A stretch of DNA of 53,354 bases from assembly GCA_017540825.1 (NCBI GenBank), contig JAFYAH010000007.1, forward strand, positions 1-53,354, given 5' to 3'. The notes beneath the pieces were generated by a model. It was not told the origin of the DNA, made no database searches, and worked only from the letters and a program-made list of their open reading frames with translations. Shown here piece by piece: positions 40,881 to 47,505 of this stretch. A program made the translations under genes and the position numbers. Each line of letters begins with the position of its first letter. The stretch's first letter is position 1. This DNA is from Candidatus Methanomethylophilaceae archaeon (lineage in GTDB: Archaea > Thermoplasmatota > Thermoplasmata > Methanomassiliicoccales > Methanomethylophilaceae).

Positions 40881-42536
40881 ATGGATTACGGGAAGAAGAG
40901 GGCAGTCGGCAAGTTTAACATCTCGAGCATCGACTTTATCGAGAAGGACGGAAAGGCCAGGGTGGTGTGCAAGCTCAAAAGGACCGTCGTGAAGAAGAAC
41001 GAGACGGAGGCCGACGAGAAGAGCCTCTTCTTCGAAGTGCCCGGCGAATACGGGAAGTACCTGGTGTGGGAGAGGTGCGACGCCTTCGTAGTGCTCCTGC
41101 TGCACACCGCGCTGAGCGAGGGCTACGACATCACCTCCAGCATCCCCATGTCCTCGGACCTGTACTACAACATCACGGAGTACCTGCTCCCCCCGTTCAT
41201 CAAGAACGGAAAGTACGATATCAAGATAGACGTCGACGTCGCCGACCCTCTTCCCCCCGGCGAAGGCGTAGGGACGGGGCTGTCCTGCGGGGTGGACTCC
41301 CTCCATGCGGTCCATGCCTACGTGGACTACCCCATCGAAGACTACAGGCTGACGCACCTCTGCATCAACAACGTCGGCGCGTTCGGGAACCACCTGTACT
41401 GGAAGGTGGGCGGCGAGAACGTCCGCAGGAACTCCTACGAGCGCGCCAGGAAAGCCGCTGCCGACATCGGCCTGCCGCTGATCGAGACCGAGTCCAACGT
41501 CGCCAAGGCGCTCCGCCTCAACCACATCTTCACCCATTCGTTCTCGTCGTCATTCGCCATCCTCTGCATGAGGAAGCTGTGGAGATGCTACTACTACGCC
41601 TCAGCCGGCGAGGACTTCGTGACGGACTTCTCGATAAGAGGATGGTACGAGAACAAGCCCGCCACCTACGAGCCTTTCCTCCTGAGGGTGCTGAGCACCC
41701 CCGGGCTGAGGTTCTACTCCGTCGGAGAGATAGAGTCCAGGCTCGACAAGATATCGGACATCGCGGACTACGACATCGCCAGGAAGCACCTCTACTCGTG
41801 CACATGGGACATCGAAAACTGCGGGGTCTGCAGGAAGTGCATAAGGAACCTCACCTCGCTGGACGCCCTCGGGAAGCTGGACAACTTCTCCGAGGTGTAC
41901 GACCTGAAGCACTACAGGGAGCACAAGGCGTACCACATGTGGAAAGTCTACGAGAACAAGGACGAATGGTTCTTCACGAAGGTCTTCGAGAAGCTCATGG
42001 AGAACGAGGACCCGGTCCTGAAGGAGGTCGTCGAGATCGCCGGCGCGATGGAGAGGTTCGACGAGCTGTGGGAGAGGGAGGACCCCGAGTCGGACAAGGA
42101 GGCGGTGCGGATAGCCATGCCGTACCTGAACCGCGCCAAGGGGCCGAACATCCGCATGGCCAAGGCCTACGAGTCCGGAAGAGGGGTGAAGAAGAGCCAT
42201 GACAAGGCTATGCAGTGCCTCGAGTACTGCCTCCAGTCCTACAGAGAGGACGTCGCGGCCGGGTTCTAGTCCAGGTACAAGCTCTTCGACATGCTCTGGA
42301 AGATGAGGAAGGACGACGAGCTCATGGAGACGATAATGCCGATGGTCGAGTACGACAGGCCGGAGGCGAAGGTCCGCCTCGGCAGGATGTACGCGTACGG
42401 GAGAGGAGTGGGCAAGGACGTCGAGAAAGGCAAGGCGCTCATGGCAGAGGCCGCCAAGAAGAAATCCGTATACAAGGCCGACTACAACAAGCTCGTCGCG
42501 AAGACGAAGAAAAAGCCCAAGAAAGCCGGCTCCTGA
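40881..42536 (+). CDS. QueC-like PP-loop protein with Sel1 repeats and an in-frame TAG
   Basis: The N-terminal 380 residues hold a PP-loop ATPase domain: GTGLSCGVDSLHAVH, and late CGVCRKC as in QueC zinc sites. Two Sel1-like repeats follow. The frame meets TAG at 42267-42269 after ...YREDVAAGF, then goes on without shift for 88 codons: KLFDMLWKMRKDD, a second repeat (LGRMYAYGRGVGKDVEKGKA) and TGA at 42534-42536. The LicD protein of the same cluster has the matching [13 protein letters not shown] spacing, so the part after TAG belongs to this protein. Readthrough (possibly pyrrolysine) or a recent amber truncation at residue 462. Confidence 0.75.
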
Positions 42537-44065: not shown

Positions 44066-46288
44066 TCATGGGAGCTGCCTGAGCTCTTCCTCTGCCCATT
44101 GGACCTTCTTGGCGACCGCCTTCCTGTACCATATCCTGGATTTGCCCAAGTCCCTGTCGACCCCTCTGCCGTCGCGATACGCTCTTCCCAGCCTGCCCAT
44201 TGCGCCCCCATTGCCGGCATTAGCGTACTTCCTGGCCACTTCGATCATCTCTGAATCGGCTTCCGGCGTGCCGATCTCCCATAGTATGTCGAAGAGCTTG
44301 TTAGGAGCGAGCTTAATCTTGTTCTTTACCGCGAGCCTCATACATTTCGCCGCTTGGTCGAGGTCCTTATCCACGCCGATGCCGTCGCGATACATGCGGG
44401 CCTCGATGACGGACATTGCCGCTCTGGGCCTTCCCTTCAACGAGCGGATGTATTCTAGCGCCTTTTCGTTGCTCTCGGGCGTGTCCATCTCCAGCAATAT
44501 TTCGACGTACTCGGCTCTCGAAGTCTTAGGCCCGCGCCTGATGCTGTTCCTCATAAGCTCTGCGGCCTTAGGCATATCCTTCTCCACGCCTTTCCCCTGA
44601 CGGTACGCTCTGGCCATGCCAGCAGTCAGATATGGATCCCTGGACATGACCCCCGCTTCTCCGAGCCTGACCATGGACTCTAACGACTCGACAGTGCCTA
44701 TATCCCAAAGAATCGCGAAATACTCCCGTCCTGCCCAGTCCAACCCTAGATCTGCAGCCTTCTTCATACACTCGGCAGCCATCTCAAGACTGGGATCGAC
44801 GCCTATGCCGTCGCGATACGCCCTGCCCAGATAGCCGTAGCGGTATGAGCTGTTGGTGTAAAGGCACGAGCAGACTGCAAAGAACGCCGAGGGCGAACGG
44901 CTTCTGTAGGACCATAAGAGGCCATAAAACAAAGCTGCGATATTGCGTATTGAAGTCACCTCGCAGATGCGATCTATGTCTATGCGCGGCCTGCAATGGA
45001 TCCCGTATATCTCGAAGATGAGCTTGTACGCCGACGCCTTCCTGAATCCTGACTCTGCCATCTTGCAGCAGCATCCGTACGAATTCAGCACATCAGCCAA
45101 GTCCACGTCTTTCATGACATCGTCCACGAGAGCCACAGCTTTGCTATAATCAGTCAAAAGCAGCTCATCCAAGACCGCCATATATTCGACGTTGTCCTTC
45201 CGTCTTACAGCCGACCTTCCTTTCCTCAGCAGGACGCCAGGATCGGAGGAATCGGAACGTGCCAGCAACTCGTCAGCCCTCTCGCAGTTCTTGCCTCCGA
45301 GATCGCACAAGATATCGTACATGGTGTTGAGATAGAACGGATCGCTAGACACCATGTCGAACCTTTCCTCCAGCCTTTTCAGCGCCATGCCGGAGTTCTT
45401 CTTGACGCCTATGCCCCTGAACTCCATCAGCATAGCGATCATCTCGTAATGAAGGCCTTCGTTAGAGGTGACGTGCTTGTAGAGCAGGGACATAGATCTG
45501 TCGTATTCGGCCTCCATGCTCACCTTGTTCTTCCTGATTATGTCGATTCCTTTGGCCGTACAATATCTTACAGCCTCGTTATGGCTGACATGGGAGCCTC
45601 TCCTGAAAAGAGGGATGTCGTAGGAGCTGCCGAACTGGAGGCTCAACACGTATTCAGGATCGTTCGGTATGTATGCGTCGACATCGCCCAGCCTGACCTT
45701 CTTCAGCGGGTATATGCGATCATAAGGGATTCCGGATAGACCGTAATTCCCGTCATAGGGATTGCAAATTTTCGTCGATATGTACCTGTTGACCCCTCCT
45801 GGCTGATTGTACGACTTGAAGAGCACCGCCTCCATCGTCTTGCTCAGCTGGGTCTTATGATAAGCCAGGCCGACCTCGCGCATTATGAAGAACTGCCTTC
45901 TGCATTGAACCTCGTCCAGGTTGCTGCGGGTCTCTATGGCAGGAAGTATGTCTATGAGAGCAGGAACTCCCGATTTCCTGAACTTATGGAGCCATTTGGG
46001 CACAGTGACAGAATACTTGCTGCCGGAAATGACGTCCTCCAGTTTCTTAAGATCCTCAGACGTCATCACTATGTCTATATCGTCGTCCCAAGGGATGTAG
46101 CCGCCGTGCCTCACCGCTCCGATGAGACACCCTCCGTAAAGAAAATACGAAATTCCCTCTTTCTCGCATATTTCGTTCAGCTCCCCGAGCAAAGCTGATA
46201 CCAGCTTCTGCGCCGCGTAGGTGCCTTGATCCTGTTTCAAAGGATGAGCATCGAAGAAACTCCTGATTATGGGCAGACGGTCGTTCAT
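44066..46288 (-). CDS. LicD-family transferase with C-terminal Sel1-like repeats
   Basis: The 740-residue protein opens with a LicD nucleotidyltransferase-fold domain: [20 protein letters not shown] with DIDIVM, whose Asp residues bind metal. LicD enzymes attach phosphocholine or similar phospho-groups to glycans. From about residue 280 the rest is alpha-helical with several Sel1-type units ([20 protein letters not shown] and relatives). The GC content is lower and codon use is looser than in neighbours, a sign of transfer. [12 protein letters not shown] is chosen as start; longer starts pass through the promoter. Confidence 0.88.
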
Positions 46289-46358
46289 GATTCCAAGCTT
46301 CCCTGATGAAACCTCCGAACGACTGAGACAGGACGCTCGGCTCCGCCTTGCACATAGT

Positions 46359-47505
46359 TTAGTTTTCTTTAATCTTTTCATGATGACCGCCAGAGTCCGG
46401 ACCATGGGCTTGCGGCTTTTGTCTCTTCTTGCGGCGCTTCCTGCGACCGGAAGCCTTTGCCTTCGGCGCGGCGTTGACTGCGACAGAGGATCCTGAGACC
46501 GGATCTTTCGCTTCCAGCTCGGCGATGCGCCTCTGGGCCGCATGATGCTCCTCCAAAAGGGCGGTGAACATCTCCAGCATGTGGCCCGGCACCGAGTCCA
46601 GGGCGTCGAGCCTGTCCACCAGGAACTCCACTGCAGGGAAGAAGGTCTTCCAGTCCATCGCTTTATGAGGCTCTGGAGACGGGGCGTTATAGACCCAGGT
46701 CACCAGGTTGGAGCGATGCGTTATCCCGTACATCGGGTCTATCGACAGATGCCTGCACAGCCTGATGAAATAGCGGTTGTAGTCGACGGCGCTGGCGACG
46801 TTCTCCATTATGACGTACCTGTTCTCCTTATGCTCCTTGATTATGTCCAGGATGTAGTCGGGGTCCTTGAGGAGCGGAGAGAGGTACCCTTTCCTCATAT
46901 AGCCTGGATATCTGGTCGAGAGGGTGAGGCAGAGCTGAGGATTGATGGCCACGACCGTGCAGCCGATCCCGATGGCGGACGAAGCCAATATGGAAGCGGT
47001 CCCGCCGGACGATGACGAATAGAATACGATGTCGGGTTCTTCGATCCCCGATGCCGAGCAGACGGCTAGAATCAGCTTCCCCAGGGACTCCCACATGGGC
47101 GAGCCGTCTGTCCCCCCCCCCCGCTTTCCCGCCGAACCAGCCGTATCTTATGCCGTACAGGTAGGCCATTGGGTCGTCCACGCACAGGACGCTGGAATCC
47201 GTCTCGTCAGTGTACTTCCACCTGCTGAAGCGCGGACCCTCGTTGCGACCGTTGCCGTATGCCCCGGGAGTGAGCGAGACCAGGATCCTCCTGCTTCCTG
47301 ATCCGGACTTGTGGAAGCACATGTGGAAGTCGATGCCGTCGAAGCTGGAAACATATGCCCCGGTGCAAATCGGGCTCTTCCCGTCCCATTCCTGCTCTGC
47401 GCACCCCTTTAACCAGACGGCTTCGGATGCCTGAAGCAGCGGAACGGAGCTCTTCGCTGTCTTTCCCAATACGACGCTCGGCCTGCTCATAGACGCCTGG
47501 GCCAT
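46359..47505 (-). pseudogene. Alpha/beta-hydrolase-like gene, out of frame at an 11-base C tract (possibly phase-variable)
   Basis: Two overlapping frames make one protein. 47505 down to the tract gives MAQASMSRPSVV... to MAYLYGIRYGWFGGKAG; after it the other frame gives TDGSPMWESLGKLILAV, then IVFYSSSSGGTA, a nucleophile elbow, and VVAINPQ. The join is a run of 11 C (11 G in the coding strand) at 47112-47122; 10 or 13 would restore a product of about 381 residues. The C-terminus is a coiled coil and a Lys/Arg-rich tail. It is either a slipped-strand ON/OFF switch (read OFF here) or a homopolymer sequencing error. It precedes licD on the same strand. Confidence 0.75.
47112..47122. repeat. Homopolymer tract C11
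   Basis: Eleven consecutive C bases inside the hydrolase-like gene, exactly where its frame is lost. Tracts of this length are prone to slippage in replication and also to sequencing error. Confidence 0.9.

Follow-up and report, generated by a model that had tools for sequence, protein, structure and literature searches.

A TAG within the reading frame of a PP-loop/Sel1 protein from a Candidatus Methanomethylophilaceae archaeon is most probably decoded as pyrrolysine (Pyl) at codon 463 (we put the probability at roughly 0.87), with production of a full-length protein carrying a QueC-like PP-loop domain and Sel1 repeats. The gene lies in a stretch of 53,354 nucleotides, referred to here as the window. 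The observations behind this reading are the frame itself and its homology, a TAG at the same site in a second species, the coding bias and selective constraint of the codons that follow it, the host's genes for Pyl use, and other conserved host genes interrupted by TAG.

Results

The reading frame continues through the TAG

Translation of positions 40881-42536 gives 462 codons, the TAG, 88 further codons and a TGA; the 551-codon frame contains no stop or frameshift other than the TAG at codon 463. The claim of an earlier note on this DNA that the same frame stays open for 88 codons after the TAG at 42267-42269 is therefore confirmed by translation. The features of the gene are as follows.

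40881..42536, plus strand: PP-loop/Sel1 protein, full frame of 551 codons with TAG as codon 463, ending in TGA; has full-length homologues
41262..41888, plus strand: QueC-like PP-loop ATPase domain, about residues 128-336, from structure comparison
41283..41300, plus strand: SCGVDS (residues 135-140), a variant of the SGGxDS PP-loop motif, from the sequence
41799..41840, plus strand: C307-x6-C-xx-C-xx-C320, QueC-like zinc-site cysteines, from the sequence
42153..42224, plus strand: weak Sel1 match (residues 425-448) ahead of the TAG, from a Pfam search
42267..42269, plus strand: in-frame TAG, codon 463, probably decoded as pyrrolysine, in a loop between predicted helices 440-459 and 465-474
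42270..42533, plus strand: coding region after the TAG, 88 codons, predicted to fold as the terminal helices of the Sel1 solenoid
42360..42461, plus strand: post-TAG Sel1 repeat unit, matching positions 1-34 of 36 at 27.8 bits
42534..42536, plus strand: TGA terminator of the read-through frame, from translation

The length of the open run is by itself weak evidence, since a run of 88 codons arises by chance in about 4% of shuffles of the same stretch and in 9% of shuffled window pieces. The codon bias of the region was also scored; the 88 codons after the TAG score 63 bits and the 88 that precede it 55 bits, and none of 20,000 shuffles attained the 63-bit score.

A Sel1 unit had been proposed to follow the TAG, and it was recovered at 42360-42461. 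The Sel1 score of the protein is 36.8 bits when the TAG is read through, as against 15.3 and 26.9 bits for the separate pieces, so that the gathering score of the Pfam family (PF08238, 30.7 bits) is passed by the read-through protein and by neither TAG-split piece alone. The likeness of the post-TAG region to the nearby LicD/Sel1 protein (44066-46543, minus strand), to which attention had been drawn earlier, also proved real, with 37% identity over 65 amino acids and a pairwise E of 3e-8. As a separate observation, a TAG also interrupts two other Sel1 units of the host (C30:8894-9001 and C10:9595-9699, both on the minus strand).

Selection on either side of the TAG was estimated as dN/dS by Nei-Gojobori counting on pairwise alignments of the window gene with four homologues. 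The values after the TAG are 0.64, 0.44, 0.42 and 0.50, and those for the preceding 88 codons 0.44, 0.48, 0.60 and 0.53, each being rough because only about 80 codons contribute to it. The two sets are similar, and the part after the TAG is therefore constrained as protein.

Homologues span the site

In an order-wide search the PP-loop/Sel1 protein was matched in 13 of 147 genomes. Codon 463 is crossed by all 15 homologues that were aligned, each of them full-length or close to it. The earlier note had held the post-TAG region to be homologous protein and had suggested a search of the translation against relatives; full-length homologues with a sense codon at the site were found, and the claim stands. 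It had also named the opposite pattern, homologues that end at the TAG position with the downstream part as a separate gene, and this was seen in none of the 15. The residues at the site are Q, Q, S, N, S, R, D, T, T, T, T, G, T and P, with one further TAG, and the sense codons include CAG, AGG and ACG. Glutamine (CAG) is the residue of the two nearest CAG homologues, one a paralogue on contig C32 of the host itself and the other a gene of SIG7 (G093), while the more distant homologues have Arg, Ser, Asn, Asp, Thr, Gly or Pro.

The one homologue with TAG at the identical aligned codon comes from a second species, RGIG8197 (G002), a water-buffalo rumen MAG assigned to 'Candidatus Methanomethylophilaceae'. 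Its protein is 61% identical and its frame downstream of the TAG is intact. PylS was not seen in this genome, which is about 61% complete; an mtmB with an in-frame TAG is present. In the tree the RGIG8197 copy branches outside the window gene and the two CAG genes and, because of this branching, shared descent and double origin of the same-codon TAG each need two changes. By synteny the RGIG8197 copy corresponds to the CAG genes, and the window gene is located elsewhere. In-frame TAGs at other positions occur in some remoter members of the family. Another pair of same-site TAGs was noted in orthologues from G098 and G096 (L022 and L034), where the TAG has the context RM-TAG-DLKLRDLVR and lies downstream of the matched stretch.

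A QueC-like PP-loop domain and a Sel1 solenoid

A structure model of the read-through protein was built from seven sequences with the TAG modelled as Lys (mean pLDDT 86). In this model codon 463 sits in a loop with helices 440-459 and 465-474 on either side; a stop there would, on the model, delete solenoid helices 465-543 and leave the whole PP-loop domain. The predicted fold of the N-terminal part matches Cap9 with Z 15.3, QueC 3bl5 with Z 14.2 (rmsd 3.2 over 179 residues), which places it within the QueC fold, and QatC with Z 12.4 over 305 residues; Foldseek alone listed mainly Sel1/TPR proteins.

QueC proteins carry the motifs SGGxDS and C(x)8CxxCxxC (PMC13329287). The window protein resembles the QueC family (QueC, QatC and Cap9) in its predicted PP-loop fold and in a four-cysteine zinc motif of the CxxCxxC type. 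It differs from QueC in that the SGGxDS loop is absent, with SCGVDS in its place, in having C(x)6CxxCxxC instead of C(x)8CxxCxxC, and in its extra Sel1 repeats. The SCGVDS motif is invariant in a seven-sequence alignment and all four zinc-site cysteines are invariant in 12 sequences. The Pfam QueC model (PF06508) gave no match over its cut-off in the window protein, and one of seven homologues matched at E 0.12; NCBIfam yielded no family for the PP-loop/Sel1 protein. PADLOC called no system for it, and we therefore claim no defence role, although its fold is like those of QatC and Cap9. As a guess, the chemistry could be a QueC-like ATP-dependent ligation or adenylation.

Genomes from one genus of rumen Methanomethylophilaceae relatives carry several copies each of the PP-loop and Sel1 fusion (the window gene and loci L018-L043), whose PP-loop part is missed by Pfam, NCBIfam and PADLOC. 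On a contig binned as Ruminococcus (L084, CADBQZ010000098.1) a relative is encoded that consists of the PP-loop domain only, at 35% identity; either gene transfer or mis-binning would account for this.

The host encodes pyrrolysine machinery

The host is a Pyl-encoding relative of Methanomethylophilaceae within the order Methanomassiliicoccales, and its genome comprises 2.37 Mb in 73 contigs and is 95.6% complete. PylS is encoded (E 4e-76), and a tRNA-Pyl with a CUA anticodon lies directly upstream of its gene. Downstream of pylS are frames resembling pylB, pylC and pylD in the order pylBCD, an assignment made from sequence and order and not from model scores. The host has two MtmB genes, each with one in-frame TAG, and one full aRF1 was found. 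The suggestion made earlier, that a UAG in a Methanomassiliicoccales host could be pyrrolysine, is thus supported by PylS, tRNA-Pyl and the TAG-containing mtmB genes, from which we infer the residue itself. A PYLIS-like structure was not found after the TAG (fold z-score 0.22, and Rfam gave nothing beyond chance); it is an optional enhancer, and Pyl insertion does not depend on it (PMC4153887).

TAG across the host genome

Over 442 kb of the host, a coding-like continuation was seen after about 23 of 32 gene-like frames ended by TAG as against about 51 of 200 ended by TAA or TGA (Fisher p 6e-7; counts derived from rounded fractions). Only the 25 codons directly after each stop were scored, because TGA often separates neighbouring genes in the same frame and raw counts of coding signal on both sides are then misleading. 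Since the 442 kb included a few stretches chosen for pyl genes or TAG-bearing Sel1 units, the test was redone on the 17 stretches (340 kb) that had not been picked for TAG; here 15 of 21 TAG frames and 37 of 145 TAA/TGA frames continue as coding-like sequence (p 6e-5), or 71% of the testable cases for TAG and 24-26% for TAA and TGA. In about 24 of 42 TAG-ended frames a coding extension is not clear, and TAG may still terminate some host genes.

Several individual host frames with TAG were located.

L064 639-2003 (host contig C26:20696-21871), minus strand: citrate synthase with TAG
L054 14151-14813, minus strand: PHP/RNase P p30-like protein, TAG at codon 105, further Pyl candidate
L052 6630-9521, minus strand: HAD hydrolase-like protein, TAG at codon 165, further Pyl candidate
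L061 8923-14544 (contig C36), plus strand: endonuclease III-like frame followed by Schlafen/AlbA_2 and LRR protein

The citrate synthase is the only one found in the host; its TAG, at codon 61, falls within the domain (E 4e-118), and none of five orthologues from the same genus has a stop. At L061 four TAGs fall within 20 codons between the endonuclease III-like and the Schlafen-like frames, with no TAA or TGA between them; either TAG terminates there or the two frames are fused.

Discussion

The scheme that best explains these results is that PylS would charge tRNA-Pyl(CUA) with pyrrolysine, the tRNA would insert it at codon 463 and the ribosome would continue to the TGA at 42534-42536. Decoding would proceed through the usual PylS and tRNA-Pyl, with no dedicated RNA signal, and the predicted product of 551 residues runs from a QueC-like PP-loop domain at its N-terminus to a Sel1 solenoid at its C-terminus. 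The TAG most likely originated in a nearly neutral CAG-to-TAG change (Gln to Pyl), permitted by a cell that decodes Pyl constitutively, as far as the neutrality of the site can be judged from the homologues. Because these hold many different residues at the site, Pyl at codon 463 is probably tolerated and neither catalytic nor needed. A more far-reaching version, in which UAG is an ordinary Pyl sense codon throughout the lineage, Pyl is needed by conserved enzymes such as the host's sole citrate synthase, and the UAG shared between PP-loop/Sel1 genes marks an ancient Pyl position that has been kept and has its own role, seems to us improbable.

It is possible, although we consider it unlikely, that UAG is ambiguous here, the release factor competing with tRNA-Pyl to give products of 462 and 551 amino acids in a ratio set by the supply of Pyl or methylamine. 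This overlaps with decoding as pyrrolysine, in that Pyl would still be inserted, only not every time. One full aRF1 and the TAG-ended genes whose extension looks non-coding suggest that TAG may terminate in places, and a truncated form would retain the entire PP-loop domain; however, constraint is equal before and after the TAG, and truncation would drop solenoid helices 465-543.

That the TAG is instead a recent nonsense mutation, leaving a pseudogene or a truncated protein only, is very unlikely. The change from CAG is a single transition, the two closest CAG homologues probably represent the former state and the TAG-free paralogue on C32 could cover the function, but purifying selection persists after the TAG, none of the 551 codons holds another stop or frameshift, the second species has the same-codon TAG with an intact downstream frame, and the mtmB genes of the host require UAG to be decoded. 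The region after the TAG could also be imagined as a separate small gene of 81 amino acids starting at the ATG at 42291, 21 bases past the TAG. We regard this as scarcely credible; no Shine-Dalgarno-like sequence is present at the proper distance before that ATG, a start there would cut through the conserved helix KLFDMLW, and no homologue is split at the site. Least probable of all is an error of sequencing or assembly with CAG as the true codon: the genome is a draft in 73 contigs and relatives have CAG, yet the same TAG appears in an independently assembled genome and many other conserved host genes have an in-frame TAG. Decoding as pyrrolysine remains the preferred reading.

Comparison with known systems

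Borrel et al. (2014; Table 7) listed 16 predicted Pyl proteins beyond the methylamine methyltransferases in 'Ca. Methanomethylophilus alvus', one of them a 389-residue Sel1 protein (AGI86303.1), and attributed them to mutations that are stable because the cell suppresses TAG; TAG stops are very rare in that organism, at 1.6% (PMC4153887). The present case resembles that set in belonging to the same order, in having TAG-split halves that match one homologue, and in the proposed constitutive decoding of Pyl; it differs in concerning another protein, a 551-residue fusion of a QueC-like PP-loop domain and Sel1 repeats, and in the same-codon TAG in another species. With MtmB, MtbB and MttB the window gene shares an in-frame UAG within a Pyl-encoding archaeon. 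In those enzymes, however, Pyl is catalytic and the UAG conserved, whereas the site in the window gene varies among homologues. An archaeal 'Pyl code' in which all TAG codons of Pyl archaea are read as Pyl has reportedly been described, in about 2025, and the likeness to it would be in the genome-wide use of TAG as a sense codon, though some TAGs of the host may still terminate.

Gene callers that take TAG as a stop will shorten proteins of this kind in Pyl-encoding archaea, and sense decoding of UAG beyond the methylamine enzymes becomes directly testable by proteomics. Pyl proteins outside the methyltransferases had already been predicted in this group, of which the window gene is a well-supported new example; what it adds to them is the occurrence of TAG at one and the same codon in two species, together with a broad signal of TAG read-through in the host, extending to citrate synthase.
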